In this document: positions 1-51,295 of the stretch, piece after piece | Position numbering within the stretch: the stretch's first letter is position 1 | Layout: each line of letters begins with the position of its first letter | Origin: Bolinopsis microptera | Taxonomy: Eukaryota > Ctenophora > Tentaculata > Lobata > Bolinopsidae | Assembly (NCBI RefSeq): GCF_026151205.1 | Contig: NC_087082.1 | Coordinates: forward strand, 12,449,365 to 12,513,364 | Length of the DNA: 64,000 nt | Direction: 5' to 3' | Position numbers and translations under genes: made by a program | Notes under the pieces: model-generated | Database searches by the model: none | Told to the model about the DNA's origin: nothing | The model's input: only the letters and a program-made list of their open reading frames with translations

Positions 1-1640
1 ACTTTCAAAACAGCGCTGCCGAGTAGCCACCAAGCGAGGACGAACAAAACGTCAGTCAAACGAACTCCTTATCCTTCTACGACGCGTTATATAACTCAGG
101 TCACGTTTGTGAAGCCGGAAACGTACGAGTAGGTAGACGCGGACGGTCCCGTTAGAGGGCTGGAAATTTATCAAGGGAACCTCGGAAAGATACATCAAGA
201 CGGGCAAGACTGTTGTTTTCACGATGAGCTTCCATCTGTAATACAAAAACCATTCAGACATTTAATTTTCAGTTAAATTAGGGAAATTAGACAAAATTTT
301 ATTATTCTTATATTAGTAGTATTACACGTTATTCAAGAAGACATGGTCCGGTAATTAATGAACTAGTTCTACCTGAAAAAACAGCTCATCAGACAACCAC
401 ATCACCCTCTAGGTTTAAGAGATAACAGACTTTAGAGTGTGGCCATTGAAGCGGTACGCGAGGGATCTCTCACTCTCTCTCTCTTGCAGCTCATTAGTCG
501 ACACTCGTTGTTGAACCTACATACTGTTAAGAACCTGCTCTCTGCAAAGTTCGTGGAGCAAAACACTGAGTGGAGCTGTCGGGACGTGTACATGTTACAT
601 TCTCCTCATGTCTCGTGCAACGAACGTGTCCGTGTTGACTGTCAGCCTTCAGCTCTCGGATCACACATCACGCACGCCTGTATGCTGTGAAAATATGTAC
701 ACTGTACAGAGAACAAAACAAAGGAATGAGGTGGCCACTATTTCACTGCCAGCGTGTATTAACATTGTGTGATCATATCATGTCAACGTGAAATAATGCA
801 TCAGAAAATAATTAGGTCAACGTGATTAAATTGTCCTGACATGTTGATATAAATGCATGTCACATTCTCACACAGTTTTGTTAACTATTAAGTTCACTAA
901 CTGAATAATAGCATTGCGAAACTTACAGTTTCCGCAGAAGCCGCTTGTACAGTGTACACAGGGTATAGGGGTTAAGAGGACTGTCAGATGTCTCTAAATG
1001 TAGGAATTCTCAGTTCGTCTCTTGTGTCACCTCTGCACTCCTCTTCTCTTTTCTCTCTCCAGCTCCCGTCTCTTCAGTTGTTCCTCCAGCTCCCGTCTCT
1101 TTGTTCGTAATTCTGTACTCCACATTCCTCTCCCAGCTCACTTCGTTTATCTAACCCTACCAGCTCTCACATCACTGCTCCTAAGTCGTGTACTGTCTCC
1201 ATCACATCAAGATCACACTCCTACTCGCTTGCGTACCTGCAATCTGCATCCTCAATCTCCTCCTGGTCATGTCGTCGAGTCTCACCGTACCAGCCAATAT
1301 CTTACACCACCAGTCACGTCAGAAACCAAGTCTGTCAAGCAGGAGAGACTCTCACCGGGTCGTTAGAACACTTGTCAGTCAGATCTCGCACAATGTAGCT
1401 GAGTCAGCAGTCAGATCAGGGAAGGTTCAGCACGTAACGCTATTAGGGGGGTCTCTGCACGATCTTAACTATGCTCCGGAGACACGAACTCTAGTTAACC
1501 TGTTAGCACCACAAATAACTTTCACATCTTACTATGATACCGACTCTAAAATCTAAAATTGATCATAGTGCGAGATGGTTGCAGGGTTTTTAACACTTAG
1601 ATAAAATAAGAGAAACACGAATTACACGCTTACGTTTGTC
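1..1640. other. Gene-poor left edge, no supported gene
   Basis: I see no exon structure, RNA gene or conserved protein here. Short open frames near 440-690 and 1020-1550 have low-complexity Ser/Leu/Pro composition from CT-rich DNA and no recognisable domain. About 1056-1110 an 18-base phrase containing CTCCAGCTCCCGTCTCTT occurs twice in tandem, which explains the local open frames. Confidence 0.5.
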
Positions 1641-1685
1641 AAGGTGACCGTAGAGCTTGTGAGACTGGGTGTCCATGAGTTGACT

Positions 1686-1782
1686 GTTGAGAATCCTCAA
1701 CTAGCAGTTATCAGGGTTGTCGAGAACTCTCGACTTGTCACCGGGAAACTGGGAACAGTCCCGAGTACAAACGGTCCTTTTC
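1686..1782 (+). repeat. Hairpin module 1 (double)
   Basis: HP1 is 1686-1701 (GTTGAGAATCCTCAAC). HP2 is 1719-1734 (GTCGAGAACTCTCGAC), where both stem arms carry a matching T-to-C/A-to-G change. CCTTTTC is at 1776-1782, unusually far (41 nt) from HP2. Confidence 0.75.
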
Positions 1783-2188
1783 TTTATTTTTCATCACTTA
1801 TCTCGGGGAGACCGGGAAACCTCCGTCAAAACTGTAACTAACAACACCGAGGTAACGCTAGTCGCTATCAGGCGGGCAGGGACTGCACGGGGCACAACCT
1901 GTTGCCCTGTAATGGGGAATTTTGTGTCAGTCTTACCGACTAACGACCAAAGTTTTAAACAGTAAAATTTACGGACAAGAAATTTGCGTGAAAATGGCCA
2001 AAAAAAGAACACACACACACAGCTTAAAAACAAAACAAAAGATACTTGTCCCGAATATATATAAAAGATCTAGCGTATGATAGGAATACTTTACAATTCA
2101 CTCAGACATTTCCTAACTTGCTACGTGCAGAAACGGTAGTACAAAGTAGAGTTAAGTGGGAGAAACCGACCACAGAGCACCAGTTTGC

Positions 2189-2256
2189 GTTGAGAATCCT
2201 CAACTAATAGTGATAAGATCCTGTTGAGAACACTCAACTAATCCGGGAACCTTTTC
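2189..2256 (+). repeat. Hairpin module 2 (double)
   Basis: HP1 2189-2204 has loop AATC. HP2 2223-2238 has loop AACA. CCTTTTC is at 2250-2256. Spacers are 18 and 11 nt, close to the array norm. Confidence 0.85.
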
Positions 2257-3407
2257 TTGTGTATGTTTGCCTATGATCTCACAGCACATAGCGTTTGGTA
2301 CCCGCAGCACATGCAAGGACAGGTCCCGTCAATTGTCCGGCCACAAGGAGAAATCGTAAACCGCTAGTAACTGCTCTAGAAAGAATAGCACCAGGTTACC
2401 GCAAATATACACGTACCCTCTCAAAGCGAAGAAATATAGCTATACAGATTGTATTTGAACGGATGCTATTCATGGGAATAGTAAGACAGCATAAGCTGCG
2501 GAATGATATGTGAAAAGCCAAACTAAATCAAAGAAGGATCAATTTAGCAATCAAACGGGCCACATATTTAAATGAATAATAATGCTTTAAAGATAAACTT
2601 CTTAGTCGAAAACCAACGCTTTAGCTAAATGTAGCAACCTAATTAGTAATTACGTAATATTTGATACAGATTACTATGAACTCAGCCTGATTGATGTATC
2701 GATTCCGGAAAACAAGTTTGGACAGTGCTGGAAATGACACTCACATCTACGTTCAATTGTAACTACCTAGTAGTTATAGTAAACCTGTTTGGAGTCAGCC
2801 ATCCACGAGCCAGTAGAGGATTAATTACCAAATTTCAAACATAACCGATCACAGTACTATCTAAACAGAGCTAGAGGCGAACAGATTTCTAATGATAAGA
2901 GCTACTATCATGTAAGCTCCACAGGTACTTTGACGCAACAACTGACTGCTGAGGTCAAATCTTATACCGATTTCGTCGAGAGTAGCTCAACATAGGCCCT
3001 TTTCAAAGCACAAAAATCAATTCATACTTCTTCGTTGGACCAAAAGGTCGACAAAATTGCCAAGAAATTAAGGACACAGCCAATTAGGCGATCGAAAATT
3101 TCCGTTCATTGAGAGTTCTCAATTATAAGAAGCTCTAAGTTGACCGCTTATGAAGCTTTTTTTTGCTATCCAGAAATCAATCCCAAGCGGAACGGTACCG
3201 TGTACTGTATACATAGTATACAAGACTACACTACCGAACACTGCATACAAGTTCAACACATGCTATGGCCGTTAACAAGGTCGAACTTATAAACTGCTTT
3301 ACTGAGTATCAATCAGACGGTTTGACTCTGAATCAGTAGGTCCAGAATCTGCGTACCTCAGACAATTCAAGACACACAATTATCTTGAGGTCATGACGTC
3401 CATTTGT

Positions 3408-3438
3408 GTCGAGAACACTCAACATAAAGTTCCTTTTC
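3408..3438 (+). repeat. Hairpin module 3 (single)
   Basis: One hairpin, 3408-3423 (GTCGAGAACACTCAAC), with one G-U type pair if folded as RNA and the AACA loop typical of HP2. CCTTTTC at 3432-3438. Confidence 0.7.
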
Positions 3439-3613
3439 GGGTTACATCAGGGACCAATCAAGAGAAACCTGGAATTCCAGAGCCACACGTCCACAACGTG
3501 AATAGACGAGAGACACGGGCTCCAATACTGCAGTTAGCAGCAATTGACAGAATCAATCAAGTTCCCTGTTGTGATGCAAAGCCACAGAATGTTCGTGCTC
3601 GGACATCAATAGT

Positions 3614-3695
3614 GATGAGAATTCTCATCTTTAGGTTGAGAATACTCAACGCTCCTTTCTGGGCCTTTTCTGGTTGGTCGCATTTCTGCGACCAA
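3614..3695 (+). repeat. Hairpin module 4 (double, plus a third downstream hairpin)
   Basis: HP1 3614-3629 (GATGAGAATTCTCATC) and HP2 3635-3650 (GTTGAGAATACTCAAC) are only 5 nt apart. CCTTTTC is at 3664-3670. It is followed directly by a perfect 8-bp hairpin, TTGGTCGC/GCGACCAA with loop ATTTCT, at 3674-3695. Confidence 0.8.
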
Positions 3696-3928
3696 TTTGA
3701 TCTGGGTTTTGTTGGTTCAGGATGCTAGTGCTTGCCACTCCAAGTCCACAAAAGAGCGGTCTCATCATGATGGCAGTACAAGATCGAGGTGTTGTTTATA
3801 AAAACCAGTCCAAGGACACTGTAAGGCAATCCAAAGACGGTTCGGTTGATTGGTAAAGTTGATAGTGAAAACCAGTCCATAGTCAACGGAGGTTGACATG
3901 GACGGTTAGGTGTCGTTAGTGGGTAAAC

Positions 3929-4127
3929 ATCCATTCCAGGACTGCCGTGAAGCTATCCTTAGATGGTTGTTTGGCTGTGTTTGGGTTCTGTTTGGTTCCG
4001 TTCGGTTAACTCGCCATACCAGGACTGCCCGGAGGCTATCCTTCGATGGCTGTCTGCCGTCTGGGTTACATGAGATCGGTCACTTTCGCCATACCAAAGG
4101 CACTCGAAAGTAATCCTCAGATGGCTA
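3929..4127 (+). repeat. Degenerate tandem repeat, about 80-bp unit
   Basis: The phrase CCAGGACTGCC and the following GCTATCCTT and GATGG recur at about 3929-3971 and 4012-4053. A more decayed third copy lies at about 4089-4127. It sits between hairpin modules 4 and 5 and contains none of the hairpin motifs. Confidence 0.55.
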
Positions 4128-4694
4128 AGCAAACTTTCTGTGTTGGGTAAATCATAGTTGACATATATTGGTGCTACAGTTTGAGTGAATACAGTTTTTA
4201 AACGATGATAAGCTATCAAATTTTGGTGGACTATGCTTTTTCTATGCAACAATTGAACATGAAGTTGAGCACAAAATAAACATGCTAATACTATACCCAT
4301 AAAGATAATTGCAACTATAACAAATTCTTATTCTTCAGTTCTTTAGTATATATAGTAGTTCTGCTTATTTCTGTTCGGATGATAAAAAGAGCCTTCAAGA
4401 GAAGAGAGAGAACCAACAGCCAAAGACCATCAACTACAAGCTAGCTGTAGTCATGATAACTTAAGCTTATCAGCCTGTCATAATAAAATATCCGGAGAGA
4501 GATTGAAGTTCAGAAGGAAATTTCGCATCAGTTGATGCAGATGTAGCAATGTAATACTAAAATAAATTTAGCTGATAGGATAGGACAATTTTCTGAAATA
4601 AGAGCGTATTAAAATCTAAAATTCGAAATTATTCAGAAATTAATCCCGAGGTTATGGGTAAAATTCAAAGACATGGAAGATTGGGAAAAAATGT

Positions 4695-4744
4695 GTTGAG
4701 AACTCTCAACTGTGTCAATGCAACCTTTTCAAATTATAAATTTG
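4695..4744 (+). repeat. Hairpin module 5 (single, plus downstream hairpin)
   Basis: Hairpin 4695-4710 (loop AACT) and CCTTTTC 4724-4730. A 6-bp hairpin CAAATT/AATTTG with loop ATA overlaps the last C, at 4730-4744. Confidence 0.75.
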
Positions 4745-5014
4745 ATAAGGACAGTTATAAAATTGAGAAAGTCAACAAATTTAAAGTTCGAACAAGAATT
4801 TTATATATATTTAAAATCGATAGAAAAGTTAGCTGTGCAATAGTCAATAATGAAAAACTAACCAAAATGAGATGTAATTTATCACTTATGGGTATTTTGG
4901 CCTACTTCCAAGTTTTTCTCTTTATAAAAGATCATGAGTATACCATAGCTTAGTAGGCACTTCATCGAGTAGAACAGAATATTCGAGGAGTTCAAGTCTA
5001 GAGCCAAATCTAAC

Positions 5015-5077
5015 GTTGAGAATTCTCAACTTGAGAGTATCAATGTTGTTGAGAACACTCAACATTTCAACCTTTTC
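5015..5077 (+). repeat. Hairpin module 6 (double)
   Basis: HP1 5015-5030 (loop AATT), HP2 5048-5063 (loop AACA), CCTTTTC 5071-5077. This is one of the cleanest copies and a good seed for a search model. Confidence 0.85.
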
Positions 5078-5413
5078 GTGCTTATATCTATTCGATTCCT
5101 AACTCATCTGGGATGTATAACTTTTTTCAGTAATCCTTAAGTTATCCTGGTAAATCCAGTTGTCCTGAAATCCAGTTATCCTGGTAATTCCTTTTAGAGT
5201 CCTTTGATTTTATCAATCAGTTATCCTGTGAATTATTTCCTTTTTCAATATATCAAAGCTATCGTTCTATCGTTTGCTACCGTTATCATTCTTGTATTCT
5301 GTACTGGTTACTGTTATATCCTGACCAATTCTGTTGTTCGTATCACTATCATCTAAAATCCTGATAAAATGTTATTCGTCCTGTGTTTTAGATCCAGGGG
5401 ATCAGCCTTGGAT

Positions 5414-5476
5414 GTTGAGAATACTCAACTAAAAGTGTTGAAAATGTTGAAAACATTCAACTGGGTGGACCTTTTC
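5414..5476 (+). repeat. Hairpin module 7 (double, paired stem change)
   Basis: HP1 5414-5429 (loop AATA). HP2 5446-5461 (GTTGAAAACATTCAAC) has the innermost pair changed in both arms, G-C to A-T. CCTTTTC 5470-5476. Confidence 0.8.
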
Positions 5477-5710
5477 ACAGAGACCTTATATTCCACAACA
5501 GCCATGCATTCTCCAAATCTTATTACATCTGTTTTTACATCAATCCAGTGCTTCTAATTTACCAAGGTTTAAAGTTGTATTTTATACACAATACAATATA
5601 GAATCAAGTCGAGTTGGTTGTACACAGGTACATCACAGAAGGGAGTAGTTGGATCAGTGATAGGTAATCTAGTCAATCATCGTATTTGAATGATATTGAA
5701 CAGCTCAGAT

Positions 5711-5778
5711 GTTGAGGATTCTCAACTTTAGTTTATGATTGTTACCTGGGAACGCCCAGGATGTAATGAAACCTTTTC
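5711..5778 (+). repeat. Hairpin module 8 (HP2 stem fully replaced)
   Basis: HP1 5711-5726 (GTTGAGGATTCTCAAC). At the HP2 position, 5745-5760, the sequence is CCTGGGAACGCCCAGG. The stem is different yet perfectly paired, and loop type AACN and spacing (18 nt before, 11 nt after) are kept. CCTTTTC 5772-5778. This is the strongest single sign that pairing, not primary sequence, is conserved. Confidence 0.8.
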
Positions 5779-6465
5779 CTCTTATTCTACATCAAGCTAG
5801 TCAATACTTTAGCTGATTCAATTAGGTAAGCATGCATGCACGGAAATTGGTTCAGGAGTTTCAAACCCAAGAGAGAACGAACGCTGGCAAGCTTTGGAGA
5901 ATTACTGAAAATAACAAAATTTACATTTAGCATCGAAGTTTTCTTATTTTTTTGGAGGAAATGCTGCAAAAAATAGAGCCATTTTCAAACCCGATTATAA
6001 ATATAAGATAAGGCACCGCAATTTACACGAAAGTGATACATAGACTTTAAATAACAATAGAATATACAGACTGCACTGACAAATGGTTATTTATAGTTAC
6101 TGTTCAGAGATAGGAAAAGTCCAACTGGAACTCAGACACACGGATTCGGGATATCAGGTTGTATTAGCTAGAGCTATGCTTCAACATTTACATGTCCAGA
6201 GAAAGAAGACCATCCATTGTTCAGCAAAACATTTACACATCAGATATATGTATTTCTGACTACATCCGGGTCTACGTATTCCAAAGATTCCGGTGAGGTA
6301 ATAAGCGTTCATGCTCTAGCGCCAATTATTCGTGAGTTCCGATAATAAAGCTCCATATTTCAGCAAGAGGATACATATATGTACGCTTGATTAAATTGTT
6401 TTGCTCATGCACAGTTACCAATTTATATTGTATACAGATCATCTTTAAGTGGTAAGAGCCTTTTT

Positions 6466-6537
6466 GCTGAGAGTGCTCAGCTGAATTGAAATACCTGAAT
6501 TCGTTGAGAACACTCAACTGGGATGAGTAACCTTTTC
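6466..6537 (+). repeat. Hairpin module 9 (double)
   Basis: HP1 6466-6481 (GCTGAGAGTGCTCAGC, paired T-to-C change). HP2 6503-6518 (loop AACA). CCTTTTC 6531-6537. Confidence 0.85.
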
Positions 6538-6822
6538 GTTTGCCAAGTCTGGCTTATGAGAGATGTTAGATAGTTGTCTGTACTGCGTGGCTGCGTGTTG
6601 AACGAGTGCAACTTGTAACTTGGCTGATTGCAGTGTACCGTGTTGATTTACCAAATTTCTGAAATTTCCATTCCTTAGTATATCTCACAATTCGACATAT
6701 AGCATTTGTACTAAACTAATTTTGGTACAATGCTACAATGCTCACTGCATTAGTCATAAATTCATACAGATAGCTTCAGTTAGCTATAAAGAGCACTTTA
6801 ATCTCTAGATACTTATGGTTTT

Positions 6823-6856
6823 GTTGAGAACTCTCAACTTCAGTTCGAGCCTTTTC
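6823..6856 (+). repeat. Hairpin module 10 (single)
   Basis: Only the HP2-type hairpin is present, 6823-6838 (loop AACT). CCTTTTC at 6850-6856. Confidence 0.75.
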
Positions 6857-9367
6857 GGAGTGGTAGGGATGGTCAAGTTGGTACTGGGGCTGGAGTGTCG
6901 GGAATGTTGGGCGAATAGGTTGCGTTTATAATATGTTGTCGATCATTGAGTCGATTGCGGCGAGCGAGTGTTGCTTGTCAGGACATTGCATTGTGCTGGA
7001 ATGTCGATCGAGTGCGGTATATGTCGATCGAATGCGGAAGTTTGCAAGGAAGGTTAGTGGGAGGGTGGTAAGTGCAGGTTCTGGTTGTGGTTAGCGTTTC
7101 TGTGGCGTGGGAAGGTGTTAGGCTAATTACCACATATATTTAATTAACTTATTTTGCGTCTCCTCCATGCCATCAACTAAAGTCAAGCCTAGTATCACAC
7201 ATTCTAATCCATAATTAATTTCTATAGACTCATTACCAATACTTATTTCTGTCCGAAAGATAGTCAATGTTCTGGAATTTTTTCATAACGGACTTCCACA
7301 GACGAACGTCTGTACGGGAATTTCAATTATCTAGCGGTCAGATCCAAGAGGAATATCAGTTATAGGAAGGGGACACTGGACAGGATAGGTAAACTTTAAG
7401 AGGGTCAAACTCACAAGTCACCTGATAAAACAAATTTTGTATCATTATTTTAAATTATAACATTCTTTTACTATTTCTTATTTGACGGAGTATGTTCTTA
7501 ATGAAGGTTAGAAAATATCATAGACAATCAAAATTAGTAATTACCACTACTTTTATGCTTTATTTTAAAAGATTATTAGTAGTAGAATATCGTTAGCATT
7601 TATTCATGTTTACCAGACCTATATTGATATACTTATACAATGAGTATACTTGTGCAACGAGTGTAGACTGGATGGCCGCAAGTCAGCTAGAGGAGGAACA
7701 GCCTTGCCAATCCAAAGGGATGGTTGTTAGGAACCGGATCCACAAGAGAACACACGATGAGTTTGGCGAAGTACAATTTAAATTAATATAGAGCTAGAGG
7801 ATCCGGGTCATGGTAGGCGGCTCTTCAAACGTTGTTCTGTTCATAAAACTTAGCTCTGTTGGCGAAACATTTCCGTTTCTGCAGCATGGGCACGTGTTAA
7901 ATCTAAGTTTTCTAATTATAAATGTAGATATATTTAAGATTGATTTATCTTGTTTTTACCCTGTTTTGCACTGTTAGCCGAAAGATTTAAATCTAAATTA
8001 ACCCCCTCGCATTCCCTAGTGCCAAAGTATACTTATTCGTTACTAATAATAAAGAATCCCAATTCCGCAGAACAAAGATCTTCAGTGATGACTTCAGAAA
8101 AGAAGGACTGTCAAGGATTTTCAGGATGGACCTGTCAAATAATATAAACATAAGTAACGTATCCTAAAAGATGCAATGGTTGAAAGTATTTCTGTCAGTT
8201 TCTTTTAATAGCTTATTAACCTATCAAGGCCATAAAATTTAACCGTTTGTGTTTTATTTTTATAGTCATCCATACTGATTACTTCAGACCTCTTGGTTAT
8301 ACTTAGGAATAAACAGACGATGGTTAAGACTGCAGTCAGGAAGATAGGGAAATAAGAGACAAGAACAGATCAACGTCACAATGTCATCATTGTCATGCGA
8401 CCGACTCCATTACTCAAGGTTCAGTTTCCTCACCTGATGAATTAATATCGATCAAATGGATACATCATTATTCATTACGTCATGGATCTGAGTGTTATCC
8501 TCAACACGAACATTATATGACAAGACTATAAGTTTAAATGATTTGAACAGCAAATGAGATAGATATCAAAATCGTTTAAAATCGTATCATTTCGGTAAGG
8601 TACTCCCTGTATATAACAAAGTGTCCATCCCCAAACAATAAGGCCACGTCACGTCACACTAGTTCAGATCTGTAAACGAAGAACACGGAGTAGCCAAGCC
8701 TGAGAGTTTTACAGAGATACCGACTAGCGGATTAGGTTTAATACGTCACGACATTATCTCAATCATAGTATTAATGATTTTTATTGGATGACTTCTCAAT
8801 TCTTAGCTGATTTGTGTATCTTAGCTGATCAGGAAGGGGCAGGAGACTGAGGGTTTAGACACTGCCGTCACATCACCACTGCACGGCAAGCCTGTCAAGT
8901 TTTATCACAAGTTACATATTTCAGATTCCAAATGAACTGAAGTCTAAGAAAAGAGAAAATTATTACAGACTATTAATTTGATGAAGGACAAATACACAAA
9001 TTCATGAAAATATACGAGGTACTCCCTGATTCCTAACTGTAATGCTGATCCAGTAATGCTGCTAATTCAAAGGTTTACAGTCAAGGTAACGAAAAGGAGA
9101 TGGGAGCTTGCTGGCAGCTGTAAGTAAAGAGAAGATTGGCTGATGTCGATCTGAATGTCAAGTAGAGAAGAGACAGTGTGACAACCCTCCCGATATATGT
9201 GCTACACCAAAAACCCTGCCAAAAGTACTGGTGGCATACGATAGTATCTGGTTGGATTTTCATGAAGCAATGCGCGAAGCTTAATCAAAAAGCTTTCAAT
9301 CTCTGCATGATGATTACAGTTCAAACAATCTCTCAAATGAAAAATAAAACTCAAAACGCTTACGAAG

Positions 9368-9436
9368 GTTGAGAATTCTCAACTGCTTGAAGGTTTTTTA
9401 ATGCTGAGAACACTCAGCTTAGCTTTAAACCTTTTC
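9368..9436 (+). repeat. Hairpin module 11 (double)
   Basis: HP1 9368-9383 (loop AATT). HP2 9403-9418 (GCTGAGAACACTCAGC). CCTTTTC 9430-9436. Confidence 0.85.
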
Positions 9437-9692
9437 GTAAAATGCCAGAGCGGCAGAGCCAGTGATCAAGAGTACATTGTAACCACAGCATTAGAGAACA
9501 TTAATTTAACTTGTAAAGCAGAAACATAGTAGGGGCACTGAAGTGAACAGTAAGTTACACATTGATGTGAAGACGAGCAATGCAAGCTGAATACATCATA
9601 CCAAATAACAATCCGCAATTATATGTTCCACCAATTATTGGTTTTTTATGTGAAATCATCGATGAATTTCTGGGCATGTAACTCAATTGAAT

Positions 9693-9768
9693 GTTGAGAA
9701 TGCTCAACAGTTACCGTTGATTGATTTAAATTCAGCGTTGAGAACACTCAACAAGCTTTAACCTTTTC
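9693..9768 (+). repeat. Hairpin module 12 (double)
   Basis: HP1 9693-9708 (loop AATG) and HP2 9737-9752 (loop AACA), 28 nt apart. CCTTTTC 9762-9768. Confidence 0.85.
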
Positions 9769-10135
9769 GTTAGATTTTTAGACAGATCTCAAACTAGCTG
9801 TAGTGGTGAGCTTCACGCAAACAAACTTTCTGTAATAGATAAAAGAGATGGAGACAATCGGTTAAGGATTATGAATACCATTAGAAAGATTATATCATAT
9901 TGGACATATCATAATTAATTTCATTGATTTTTCTTGCCATAACAAATATCTTTGGTGCAGGAAACAAGATCTGAGAATGCATTGGAAAATGTTGAAGTTT
10001 AGCGCAAAATTACAGTCAAATCAAACCGTCCAGAAAGCGATTAAGAGCACTACGAAATCGGTTGTAGTTCCGTGTAAAAGCAGCGGCTGCTATGATTTTG
10101 GCCGAGTTCAGTGGGGTGTGTCCGAATGATGGTTT

Positions 10136-10183
10136 GCTGAGAATTCTCAGCTGAATACCTTTTGTCTGAACGACTCCGTTCAG
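10136..10183 (+). repeat. Hairpin module 13 (single, plus downstream hairpin)
   Basis: Hairpin 10136-10151 (GCTGAGAATTCTCAGC), then the variant CCTTTTG at 10158-10164. A perfect 7-bp hairpin follows, CTGAACG/CGTTCAG with loop ACTC, at 10166-10183. Confidence 0.7.
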
Positions 10184-11623
10184 TAACATGCATGCAGATG
10201 TAACAGGCAACATATAACAGTTGATATAACAGCTTTGTGGTTAAGTGCGAGGAAACGTTTTATCATAACAGCTGGCTCCGTATCTGCTCCTCCGATCAAG
10301 CCAGTGATGGGGAGGATTGGGAATCACGGGTGGACATCATGCCGAATGTGTTCTGCAAGCCCAAAATTTAGGAAATTTAGCCGTCCTAGAGGTCTTCAAG
10401 GTGCCGCTCAAACCTTACGTTTCTGCGAATTTAAATCTATTTTTAATATCGTGCATCAGTTTTAGTGTAATATGTCTAGACAACTAAACATGGTGCTATC
10501 TACGAAAAGTTATGCATATGCAGAGTTAAAATAAAACTCAATACTGCACCGTTGTCCGTCATCGACAAAAGATGTTACCGGTACCCATCGAACCGTTTAG
10601 CTCCAGCACATATGTATGACAATTAAGGCGAAGAGTTTGCATAACAGACGGCAACCCATGTCGGCAGGCCACATGTAAAACAAAGAGCTCTGGGAACATA
10701 ATGGTATTATGTGTGGGCAGTTTTTGGACAATGCCCGGGTCACTCAGATAGTAAATACATAGAGCTTTCGGGAAGAATTACGCGATATCCGAAACAAGCA
10801 TACACTTTAAGCATTTTTGTTTTATGATGGTACTTTCATAAATTCCATAGGACTGTGCACACGTAAGTTCAAAGAATAAAGAAGCCCGGTTAAAGAAATC
10901 ACTCACCCATTCTCGTTGTTAAAATATGCTGCACGGCTCACAAAGAGTTGTTAACGAAGAACTGCGCATAGCTTTAGGTTCAAGGGATCTAATACGGCCA
11001 CGCAGTTCTGAAATCTTGTTAGTGCAGCAGCTCAGGAAAAGGCCACAGACAATAAAAGATATTTCAAGCATTCATTCAGATTCGCAAGAAAATTACACTT
11101 CTGGAGCCAAAAACATAGCATTACAATTATTAATAAGTAATCCATTTTCCAATTTGAGTTACAACTATTTAAAGTATTTCTGTATCACTCGCCATTATCT
11201 TGAAACAAATTATATTCCAGATCAAACCGGATAATTAAAATTTCAACAGTCCAATAAGAACCTGAAATAATCTTGCTTGAAAGCAAATTTATGTTAACAC
11301 TGATTTAAAAGTAGCTTGCTTGTCAAAATCATGCATTGCAATTGTATTACACCAATATTCACCACAAATTGAGACGTGAAGAAAGTTGCCAAGAATAAGA
11401 ATTCTATAACAGAGTATCAGAATCGGTTTATCTCTCGAAAAAAGTTAAAATTTACAATTACGATCACTTTGAAAGGTCGGCCTACCGGTTATCAATCATC
11501 CAAGAAACCCGATATAAACACAACTAGCCAAGCTTAATCGGCAGCAGGTTATCAATACTAGCAGTAAACACCGCACTTGCGTTGACAGGTATAAAACTAA
11601 GATAAAATTTTCTGTTAAAAAGT

Positions 11624-11654
11624 GTTGAGAACTCTCAACTTTTCGGCCCTTTTC
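11624..11654 (+). repeat. Hairpin module 14 (single)
   Basis: HP2-type hairpin 11624-11639 (loop AACT), CCTTTTC 11648-11654, immediately followed by TATAAA. Confidence 0.75.
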
Positions 11655-12127
11655 TATAAAAGAAATTTGAAAAATTGATGGCTTGGCTCAAACATTTAAA
11701 GATTTGAACATAAGATATTTCATGTTTAGCAACATACCCGTAACCAGCGACAGATTCTATAAACCCCGTAGACTGAAAAGTTAAAAAGCTTATCGGCTTT
11801 ATAAGTATAATATCGATTTTAAGATGGTAAACGAAATACTGTTTACACCAGATTACATAAATAACACAATTTACCGACATCCCGTAAGAACCTCCAAGAG
11901 TTAATCATATGGTTGACCCAAAAGATTTTGCTGACGAAAAGACCAAGAATTGATGTAGAAAAGGAACTAATTTACCAAACCTCTCGAACTGATTACCTTA
12001 TACCACATCTAGTTACCGAATACTGAGATACAGAGATAAGGTTATTCGTCGTTTACAACTTCTGCTGTTGAGCCAGCCGCACCCCTCTAACAATACCTTA
12101 CTTGAAAATATAACCCAGAAAAGTTAC

Positions 12128-12158
12128 GTTGAGAACTCTCAACTTCTGTCTCCTTTTC
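12128..12158 (+). repeat. Hairpin module 15 (single)
   Basis: HP2-type hairpin 12128-12143 (loop AACT), CCTTTTC 12152-12158, followed within a few bases by TTATAAA. Last copy seen. Confidence 0.75.
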
Positions 12159-12159
12159 A

Positions 12160-13980
12160 TTTATAAAAATGATCTGAAATACCCATTAAACGCCCCTCTA
12201 AAATGCTAACAGACACTATGTTTGTCCACTCAGAAATCTATGATTATCTACTCAGAAATCTACCGTTAATTATCACGTAGCAAATGCTTTAACTCAAGTC
12301 ATGCCCACAAAATAAGATGGAGAAAATTGTTCATATTCAATAGTATTACTAAATAACAACCTGATTAAGTTTGTTACATTTCTTGGCAAAAATCGTGTGC
12401 TGCATGGAGACTTTTGAGTTATTTACAGATTAGGAAAGGCTTACGAATATTGAGAATTGCGGGAGTTGACATGTCAAACCAGTTCCCGTTGTGATTGCTG
12501 TCTCCATATAGTTTGAAGAACTGGTAAGAGTGGGCACACAAAAGATGCTCGACAGGAAAGAACTGAGGAATATTCGTTGGGACCTACACTAAGGCTAAAT
12601 ATACTCTATAGGTAGGATATTAGTATCCGTGCCTAATCGAATGAAACATAGCAAACAAAGATAAATTTTGGATTGTGAATATTTTCATCTCGTGTACTGA
12701 GTTAAATACCTCTACTAATGAGTCGCCTCTGAAATCCGAGCTGCCTAATTAGATGGCGTGGGCAGTTACATCCTTGATATCCCTTATCCCTTATTGGACT
12801 AATTTGTCCCAGCCAGTAGTAATTGGCACCCAATTAGATAATTGCTTGATACAGAGTATTATTTGATGATATTTGACGCCTTCTCAGGCTTAATGCTTGA
12901 TATATGTTTAATTCCACACAGTTTTTCTCATAGCATAACTAATCTATGTAATTAGGTTACAACTTCTTATTTATAACATGGTTTTGACAAATTTTTGACA
13001 GAAAACAGACTACACACTAACAGTACACTTAGCTATCAAGAGTGATAAGAGTTCCTTTTAATTCTTCGTGTATCATTTCCCATCTCTTCATTTTCTTTTC
13101 TTTCGCTGGACGCAGAAGAGAACAAGAAAAAAAGGCGACCGTCAAAAAGTCGAAATCCGGGAACATCAAAATTTCGTAAGCGAAGGAAAAACAGCAGCGC
13201 GAAGTGCCGGCACCGGCGCGAGAATGCGTCGTGAGGAGCGACGTGCTCCTTTATCAAAATTGTCGAGAGTTCTAAAAAATGGCGACACGAACATACGATA
13301 CGTACCACTTTTCTTCTGATATTTCACATTCTGAAGGTCGGTTCGAACGTTAATCGGAATGTAGCAACGATAATAAAGTAAATAAAACTGACGAAACGGT
13401 ACTGCAAGTCTTTAATATGACTATAAGGATAAGTATAAAATACAAACTCGGTTTGAACCTAACGTTATCATGCTACGACCGTAAGCGTGGAGTAACGCCT
13501 AAAATAATCATACTTAACTATTATAATCATGATACGTGGCTCCTCGATTACAACTATATTAAACAAACACACTAACGAATTGGGCTATTCCTGGCTTGGT
13601 ACGTGGACTAGCTTGTACAGTTCATGCAACCGATACCGGATCGGTGACACTACGTCAGATAAGTTTATGGTTCCTAATTCCTTGAATCATAAATAAGCAG
13701 AAAATAATGAACGTTAGTGCCAGAAAATAGGCAATAATTGATATTGCGCAATCCTGTCACAGTTAACAGGTAGATGATATCCTAAGCCGTAATTAACTAC
13801 ATTCTAACCTTGCATGAAATAAGTAACAAGAGAGGGAGGCCCCGAGAACTTTGGGAACAGCTAATATTTCATCATAATCTAAGGTCGACTAACAATTGTC
13901 CACACAGCTCAGACGGGAGGACAAGATTTTACACGAAACATTGCTGAGCTGCGTTAACTGAAGACATAGGTAAACAAATT
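12160..13980. other. Intergenic, nothing recognised
   Basis: AT-rich single-copy-looking DNA. Around 13100-13260 there is a short CG-rich patch with open frames rich in Arg/Lys/Glu on the plus strand, but no domain and no splice structure. I do not call a gene. Confidence 0.4.
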
Positions 13981-13983
13981 ATA

Positions 13984-14160
13984 ATATGGACCGTGCTCTG
14001 TGATATCACGGTCATGTGACATCACGTGCTTTCTACAGCCAATTGATGGCAACGGGAGTGACACGTTAAATCTCCTTATATGGAATAATTTCACTCGATT
14101 TTGATCACATGACCCTTCATCGCCGCGTGAGTAAGGGTCACGTGTCTGTGATCCAACATA
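13984..14160. promoter_or_regulatory. E-box / CACGTG cluster with inverted symmetry
   Basis: Two CACGTG palindromes (14023-14028, 14139-14144) lie beside GTCATGTGA (14011-14019) and its exact inverted copy TCACATGAC (14105-14113), plus a TGATATCA. Such sites bind bHLH-Zip factors in animals. No gene start is visible next to them, so a regulatory role is an inference. Confidence 0.3.
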
Positions 14161-14209
14161 GTATGGCAGTCTTGCGGAGTAAATCGAGAGAGTTATAGTA
14201 AAAATAGCG

Positions 14210-15150
14210 TTAGTAGACTGCGCGCGGCGTTCGCGCGGCTCAATTTATTTTCCACTGTTTAATTATTAAAACTTTTAAGAAACCCACTTTTGGATTTTAT
14301 TATTGATAAATGGTATGCAAAAATACCAAAAAAAGCTAATACTACCCAGTTACTGTGTACTGATTAATCGTTTTCAATCATTAATGCATACAACGGTTCT
14401 TCAATTTAGTATATGCTAATTCTTAATTCATGCTATACAACTGACAACGTGTCGGTTTATCAATCATAATAATGATAGTAATATAGACAGATTAGATCGA
14501 TGAAAGATGCGGTGGAGTTTATTTTGTATTTATACTATTAATTGTGTATTTCTCGTTCACCTAACCATGTGCTTTCGCGCCACTTCGGGCGCGCTTGTTT
14601 CACAAGTCAAAAAACGTGAGGCGGGCGCGCGCTACTGCAAGCGCAAGGGCTCTGGATAGAGCAATATTTCTCGCTTCTCTCTGTGCTCTGCGAGAAGATT
14701 AGATTGAAAAGAGCGCCGCGCATAGAAATTGGTGTGCAGTTGAAATGATAGGCCGAGTGATGAGTCCCGCCCAGTAAACATCATAACAATTTGTTTTTAG
14801 TTTCGATGATTAATTTGCAAGTATTTTATATTATATTACGTGCGATGCACAAGAAATTAGGTTTGAAGTTTAAATTTCACATTGAGACAGGTCGCATATT
14901 TCATATTTTGAGTAATACCATGCTACTATATATACATTGACGGATGTTGACGGATGTTACTCGTCTAAATTTCTTCGAAGTAACGCGCGCCGCTTTCTTC
15001 TCGAAATGCCCGACGGCAAGTGCTACGAAGTAGCGCGCGCCGGGCCAGACCATTAACAATGGTCAACTCAGCGCGCCATTCCTTTTATTCCGTTCGCACC
15101 CGTTCTGCGTTTCACTTCTAGATCTATCCCCCTTTTCACTCTTCTATGCG
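14210..15150. other. CG-rich islands with repeated GCGCGC blocks
   Basis: Within AT-rich surroundings there are blocks of GCGCGC at about 14220-14240, 14588-14640, 14980-15050 and again near 15576. Two near-copies of CGAAGTAGCGCGCGCCG lie at about 14977-14993 and 15024-15040. This looks like decayed transposon or CpG-island DNA; no gene is recognised. Confidence 0.35.
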
Positions 15151-15179
15151 TCGCGTGATGTGTTCATAAACATAAACAC

Positions 15180-15375
15180 ACTGATCACTGATGGATACAT
15201 GATCACTGATGGATACATGATCACTGATGGATACATGATCACTGATGGATACTTGTATCACGTGGTGACCCCCACTGTCGCTTCACTATACAGGGGGAGC
15301 CGCGCACTTCGTGTCATACAACGTATGACAAATGGATACATGATCACTGATAGATGGATACATGATCACTGATAG
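15180..15375 (+). repeat. 18-bp minisatellite
   Basis: The unit GATCACTGATGGATACAT repeats about four times at 15183-15250. After an unrelated 80-bp insert, partial copies return at about 15335-15375. Confidence 0.8.

Positions 15376-16187: not shown

Positions 16188-51295
<35,108 letters not shown>

Follow-up and report, generated by a model that had tools for sequence, protein, structure and literature searches.

What is the small hairpin module that recurs, always in the same orientation, in the genome of the ctenophore Bolinopsis microptera, and why should its stems have kept pairing while nearly everything between the copies looks unrelated? The module lies in a 64-kb region of contig NC_087082.1 (C11:12449365-12513364, hereafter the window; 38.4% GC from base counts), where the initial annotation had described it over 10.5 kb. 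We found the array to be larger, with 29 modules in a single orientation over 18.8 kb, starting at C11:12442697, 6.7 kb to the left of the window, and ending at window position 12158 (17 modules inside the window and 12 to the left of it; Table 1). The explanation that we favor, with somewhat less than even confidence and from sequence comparison, is that a long non-coding RNA (lncRNA) read from the minus strand presents about 29 structured modules to an RNA-binding protein, most likely a protein encoded on contig C9 that contains an RNA recognition motif (RRM) and an arginine/serine-rich (RS-rich) tail.

On the plus strand, the usual module consists of hairpins 1 and 2, separated by about 17 nt, and CCTTTT, which in most cases comes 6-13 nt after hairpin 2. 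The module was originally defined as a 16-nt hairpin followed by CCTTTTC. This definition was right in joining a hairpin with CCTTTT, which is present in 26 of the 28 modules found by a covariance model, but modules usually contain two hairpins (21 double and 8 single among the 29), and the next base is C in 21 of 28 modules, T in 4 and G in 3. A first tally gave 20 doubles; the module at 5711 was shown to be double once CCTGGGAACGCCCAGG was counted. The linker between the hairpins is 14-21 nt in 18 of the 20 first-tally doubles (5 and 28 nt in the other two), and the distance from the last hairpin to CCTTTT is 6-13 nt except in modules 1686 (41 nt) and 3108 (31 nt). Module edges are sharp, and outside the module only a weak T ahead of the first hairpin was seen (15/28). 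The spacers range from 115 to 2511 nt. The original description of them as unrelated largely stands, as BLAST of 27 spacers against each other gave no match at E 0.01 and a 2.2-kb spacer matched only itself in the genome; the exception to unrelated, unique spacers is window 4948-5637, which contains two modules and has a copy on contig C7. All eight single modules are located at window position 2975 or beyond, the 12 left-most modules are all double, and two modules on C9 are single too. This distribution may mark the direction of array growth.

The covariance model, suggested with the initial annotation, was built from 27 modules, whose own sequences match it by construction. It recovered 28 modules in the array (12 left of the window and 16 within it), all in one orientation, including modules 1686, 3108 and 3614, which were kept out of the model input and yet were recovered. 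All 28 scored best with the heptamer read as GAAAAGG on the minus strand; these scores show the common orientation of the modules and not which strand is transcribed. The 29th module, missed by the model and read by eye, is a variant with a 17-nt hairpin. Inspection of 30 kb leftward of the window showed no convincing module beyond C11:12442697. The GTTGAGNNNNCTCAAC hairpin is present in 16 exact copies in the window, all at 1686-12143 and none elsewhere in it. Within the 18.9-kb array region, GTTGAGNNNNCTCAAC occurs 32 times, and a hairpin followed by 6-13 nt and CCTTTT occurs 20 times; 300 first-order Markov simulations gave an expectation of 0.0 for both. CCTTTT[CGT] was found 30 times on the plus strand of this region, 26 of these within 46 nt 3' of a module hairpin, and five times on the minus strand.

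Selection on pairing within the modules, as proposed in the initial annotation, is supported by the changes in the stems. Every one of the paired arm changes listed there (e.g., GTTGAG/CTCAAC and GTCGAG/CTCGAC) is present. Among 294 pair cells of 49 hairpins, 17 showed changes in both arms and 4 in a single arm, while independence expects 1.2 both-sided cells; cells are not events, and this count omits the 2975 variant and the C9 modules. A minus-strand alignment of 27 modules, with the two C9 modules in and modules 1686, 3108, 3614 and 2975 out, showed standard pairs in 276 of 276 pair cells. Both-sided change was found in 14 cells and in 7 of the 12 pairs (1.7 and 1.5, respectively, in shuffles; at most 2 both-sided in slid controls), and RNAalifold predicted the two stems likewise.

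Read on the plus strand, the four one-sided arm changes leave C·A or A·C mismatches; read on the minus strand, all four leave G·U pairs (4 to 0), and the 2975 variant is, by eye, consistent with this pattern. The RNA probably reads 5'-GAAAAGG-hairpin 2-hairpin 1-3', contrary to the orientation first reported and with AAAA where the plus strand has TTTT, because one-sided changes give G·U only on the minus strand and because the C9 modules, in their minus-strand form, lie in sense orientation within their gene. In double modules read on the minus strand, a hand count gave the loop NGTT for 15 of the 21 second hairpins and NATT for 16 of the 21 first hairpins, and in module -121 the two loops are swapped between the hairpins. 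The loops are thus asymmetric, so that what is recognized is not a symmetric dyad; such a dyad in DNA would predict neither the loop asymmetry nor the G·U pattern. Modules 3614, -121, 10136 and 4695 carry one more hairpin just 3' of CCTTTT, up to 9 bp long and unrelated in sequence. Stems of at least 5 bp were found at this place in 10 of 28 modules compared to 4.3 expected (mean 4.1, and 3.2-3.7 at later offsets), which is a weak signal. An outer stem closing the module was considered and rejected: the longest match within 30 nt was 5.1 compared to 4.6 across modules, wider windows showed no excess, and there was a single 10-bp case, at -3702.

Searches of the 264.65-Mb assembly (232 contigs) were pattern-based, so that the counts may be lower bounds and strongly diverged modules could escape. 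The full module, AAAAGG-N6-16-GTTGAGNNNNCTCAAC, gave 20 matches: 17 in the array, all on the minus strand, 1 in the C7 copy and 2 in an intron of the C9 gene (control, 0). In these searches the full module was found only in the array, its segmental copy on C7 and the C9 gene intron. A looser pattern gave 30 matches (array 20, C7 1, C9 2, other sites 7; reversed control 12 and 13), and GTTGAGAACNCTCAAC was found 17 times (array 14, C7 copy 1, C9 1, and 1 in an interspersed repeat on C5). Modules scattered genome-wide as transposon ends, one of the outcomes that the initial annotation named as refuting it, were not what these pattern searches showed. The C7 copy (L048 5032-5730) is about 0.7 kb long, contains two whole modules and matches at 96% identity (8 mismatches, 19 gap positions). 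It was considered as a processed transcript and this was rejected, as it is a single contiguous DNA copy and the two junctions inspected show neither poly(A) nor poly(T).

The palindrome GTTGAGAAYNCTCAAC alone gave 165 + 148 genome matches, self-palindromic ones being counted twice. Among 27 loci inspected, all on C1, 26 are copies of one or other of two interspersed repeats, whose inspected flanks lack CCTTTT. These two repeat families (L002 1321-1643; L013 ~1140-1810) contain the 16-nt palindrome and an adjoining second palindrome, with loops AATG, AATC, AATT and AATA in the plus reading, and are a possible source or mimic of the module. In its listed part, a search for the double-hairpin pattern was swamped by satellite (147 + 147 matches compared to 125 + 125 in the control); a satellite of 42-bp units with TGAGAGAACTCA palindromes is located at C1:1801963-1804641.

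The C9 locus (C9:3765383-3765520) contains two single modules with starts 107 nt apart. The N-terminus of the gene product is Gly-rich, and the protein further contains one RRM and a long RS-rich tail (exon borders and tail by eye); this domain content is that of the exons read. The joined exons match Pfam RRM_1 (E 6.6e-07). Compared to PDB, the RRM showed its lowest whole-sequence E-value with Msx2-interacting protein (SPEN/SHARP, 3e-06), where no single stretch passes alone, followed by RRMs of SR proteins (6.9e-05 and 2.2e-04), each with a passing stretch. The modules lie in intron 3, which is about 2.26 kb long, compared to 118 nt for intron 1, 189 nt for intron 2 and 208 nt for intron 4 (by eye), and 1.2 kb of this intron showed no further match in the genome. 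A candidate unproductive (poison) exon of 40 nt with an in-frame TAG was noted by eye at L053 2339-2378; it is followed directly by GTAAGT, which occurs nowhere else in the intron.

According to the proposed explanation, the C11 locus would be a long non-coding transcription unit read leftward on the minus strand. Each RNA module would begin with 5'-GAAAAGG, followed usually by 6-13 nt and a 6-bp hairpin with a loop that is mostly NGUU; in most modules another 6-bp hairpin, its loop mostly NAUU, would follow after about 17 nt. Selection would retain the purine heptamer and the hairpins with their loops and spacing, but hardly anything else. Conserved modules in an otherwise free RNA are what one would predict if a single RNA-binding protein recognized many sites in it. 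The likeliest ligand would be the C9-encoded protein, whose own long intron contains the two sense modules: it may bind its own pre-mRNA and so autoregulate, perhaps via the unproductive exon, and the C11 RNA could titrate it as a multivalent decoy or serve as its scaffold. As to a promoter, the six highest CpG observed/expected (o/e) values among 372 one-kb windows (94 kb) belong to windows starting at 12752-14752, just upstream of the array in the minus direction, and this stretch is weakly suggested as a candidate promoter for the minus-strand RNA; only 12.75-14.5 kb speaks for it, because repeat matches begin at ~14555. The repeats at window 14555-15333 are GC-rich, with matches on all 13 large contigs among the candidates scored (40 of 3,386).

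What the sequence shows directly is the array, its pairing, the asymmetric loops, a hint of the strand, the restriction within the genome and the modules in the RRM gene intron; transcription, its strand, the promoter, protein binding and titration are inferred. Several points weigh against this explanation. The shuffle control does not preserve the relatedness among modules, and a DNA cruciform would produce identical compensatory changes. The strand call comes from four changes (two-sided chance ~0.12) and one other locus, and the RRM protein as ligand from the co-occurrence of gene and modules at a single locus. Part of the CpG peak coincides with a repeat. Finally, single-sequence folding of modules with 10-nt flanks (48 stems) gave mean stem probabilities no higher than 0.63 (minus strand) and 0.68 (plus strand), which is probably due to exchange of arms between the two hairpins of a module.

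The alternative that survives best, unlikely as we consider it, is an element acting at the DNA level, with the palindromes as dyad or cruciform sites for a DNA-binding protein, the heptamer as the second half of a composite site and the array as an enhancer, boundary or pairing-centre-like locus. The palindromes are indeed mostly perfect and clustered at one locus amid unrelated sequence, and they are present in the intron of another gene as well. However, the 17 both-arm changes shift both arms jointly to differing words (GTTGAG, GTCGAG, GCTGAG, GATGAG, CCTGGG) and are set against only 4 one-arm changes, where independent half-sites predict otherwise; moreover, the loops differ by hairpin position and 28 of 28 model-found modules share one orientation. 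The dyad-site locus control region of the initial annotation thus fits the arm changes and the loop asymmetry less well than a structured RNA does.

Clearly less probable is cis control of splicing or processing in one long multi-exon transcript, with alternative exons between the modules and no decoy in trans. The position of the C9 modules in a long intron of a splicing-type factor gene would suit it, and the spacers are roomy enough for short exons, but no Pfam domain was found in the six frames of window 1-9990 and L047. The minus strand of L045 and L046 likewise showed no domain; within the window, the scans covered both strands of 1-9990 and the minus strand beyond 12000. A host gene for the array was tentatively rejected, as the array stretches scanned showed no Pfam domain. 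AAAAG/GT is inconsistent as a splice site and was rejected as a 5' splice site, GGT being present in only 16 of 28 modules (hand count).

The initial annotation had also suggested that the modules may be small structured RNA genes, clustered on the plus strand and with TTTT as their 3' ends, and this we regard as improbable. CCTTTT, a possible Pol III stop, is found at the module end, and all modules have one orientation. On the plus strand, however, the one-sided changes are C·A mismatches, and the C9 modules, inside a protein gene, are antisense to the plus reading. No promoter-like motif recurs at a fixed upstream distance: there was no positional conservation in 120 nt upstream and no convincing 7-mer in 300 nt. 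The best 7-mers, GAGGTCA (5/28 compared to 0.4) and CTGAGGT (6 compared to 0.75), were rejected as a shared upstream word, such values being by estimate expected from so many tests. An Rfam scan of the 64-kb window gave only U1 at gathering score and no family that fits its 17 modules. The least probable of all is a decayed mobile element or neutral repeat array with palindromes kept by template-switch correction, since, although palindrome-correcting mutation exists, interspersed repeats of this genome carry the identical 16-nt palindrome with NATT-type loops and one module has a 9-nt word common to both flanks, full modules were found only in the array, the C7 copy and C9, target-site duplication is not general (the longest word shared by both flanks averages 3.8, compared to 3.5 across modules), the 2.2-kb spacer has no other genome match, and the unpaired heptamer and the loop letters are conserved as well.

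Table 1. Positions of the hairpin modules and of the candidate promoter stretch in the window
Feature	Window position	Strand	Basis
Module, double hairpin (1686, 1719), CCTTTTC 41 nt on	1686..1782	-	exact pattern + covariance model
Module, double hairpin (2189, 2223) + CCTTTTC	2189..2256	-	exact pattern + covariance model
Variant module, 17-nt hairpin + CCTTTTC (CCTTTTC at 2998)	2975..3004	-	by eye
Degenerate module, single hairpin, tail GCTTTTTTTT	3108..3161	-	covariance model
Single-hairpin module + CCTTTTC	3408..3438	-	covariance model
Module, double hairpin (3614 GATGAG/CTCATC, 3635), linker 5 nt	3614..3670	-	exact pattern + covariance model
Single-hairpin module + CCTTTTC	4695..4730	-	covariance model
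Module, double hairpin (5015, 5048), present in C7 copy	5015..5077	-	covariance model
Module, double hairpin (5414, 5446 GTTGAA/TTCAAC), present in C7 copy	5414..5476	-	covariance model
Module, double hairpin (5711, 5745 CCTGGG/CCCAGG)	5711..5778	-	covariance model
Module, double hairpin (6466 GCTGAG/CTCAGC, 6503)	6466..6537	-	covariance model
Single-hairpin module	6823..6856	-	covariance model
Module, double hairpin (9368, 9403 GCTGAG/CTCAGC)	9368..9436	-	covariance model
Module, double hairpin (9693, 9737)	9693..9768	-	covariance model
Single-hairpin module (GCTGAG/CTCAGC) + CCTTTTG	10136..10164	-	covariance model
Single-hairpin module	11624..11654	-	covariance model
Single-hairpin module, right-hand array end (5'-most on minus strand)	12128..12158	-	covariance model
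CpG-rich stretch directly 5' of array (minus strand), candidate promoter (weakly suggested)	12750..14500	.	CpG o/e

To the left of the array lie two reading frames in tandem that look cholinesterase-like by eye, and a weak plus-strand leucine-rich repeat (LRR) match below the Pfam cut-off (E 0.00098). On the right, minus-strand exons with matches to TPR and RPAP3_C (RPAP3_C E 1.9e-07) were found, with a frame that ends at ~16.19 kb (by eye). The U1 spliceosomal RNA match (window 21495-21655, minus strand) lies in the same stretch as the minus-strand TPR exons. Further along, window 43074-45132 (plus strand) contains two overlapping reading frames with a repeated Cys-rich unit, one of which was scanned and showed no Pfam match above the cut-off. 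Elsewhere in the genome, an aequorin query gave 55 matches to photoprotein genes, many of them in tandem (C1, C3, C5, C13) and 15 equal-scoring ones in a row on C5; the nearest solved relatives of the best match are berovin and mnemiopsin.

Comb jellies are a lineage that is possibly sister to all other animals. Among the open-access papers listed on non-coding or structured RNA in comb jellies, titles and the opening parts of abstracts describe no such locus or structured lncRNA. The function of an lncRNA is hard to spot from its sequence, whereas at the present locus selection appears to have left a strong, countable signature of paired changes in 49 hairpins. If the proposed explanation is true, a multivalent regulatory RNA would be recognizable from a single genome, and if the link to C9 is true, the site, the RNA and a candidate protein are all available for a direct binding test.

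A regulatory role for a repeated comb jelly motif has a parallel in the ctenophore chromatin-loop motif associated with CTEP1/CTEP2, described as GC-rich with two CpGs and present in most of 8,523 loop-anchor regions (PMC12221973); the array module is instead AT-richer and limited to a few loci. Genes for splicing factors such as SR proteins are commonly described as regulating themselves via non-productive exons. The C9 gene resembles these in its RRM/RS type and in having one unusually long intron among those measured, which carries the modules, but its unproductive exon is a candidate noted by eye. The unit of the XIST A-repeat is a hairpin. At least four units have been reported to be required for tight binding to SPEN (PMC10870365). 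The C11 array is similar in having a short unit in multiple copies on one putative non-coding RNA and an RRM protein as the possible partner, the lowest PDB E-value of the C9 RRM being with the SPEN/SHARP chain. This resemblance is one in kind, with no sequence relation apparent. The best single-stretch matches of the C9 RRM are to SR-protein RRMs, the exons read give the C9 protein a single RRM plus an RS-rich tail, and there is no known setting of dosage compensation. NORAD, described as an lncRNA decoy for Pumilio with many copies of a short protein site in repeated elements (PMC4947167, PMC7617650), shares this general layout with the putative C11 RNA. It is mammalian and has linear Pumilio sites, whereas the array has paired hairpins as its module and unrelated spacers, with a putative transcript and a ligand that is a guess. 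The array RNA would thus be of a kind resembling NORAD and the XIST A-repeat and a family member of neither. The complete picture, a single-locus non-coding RNA with about 29 hairpin modules in a circuit with an RRM/RS-type splicing protein whose own intron offers it the same module to read, is in our view rather improbable; if it holds, the array would represent an independently evolved multivalent RNA like NORAD and the XIST A-repeat.

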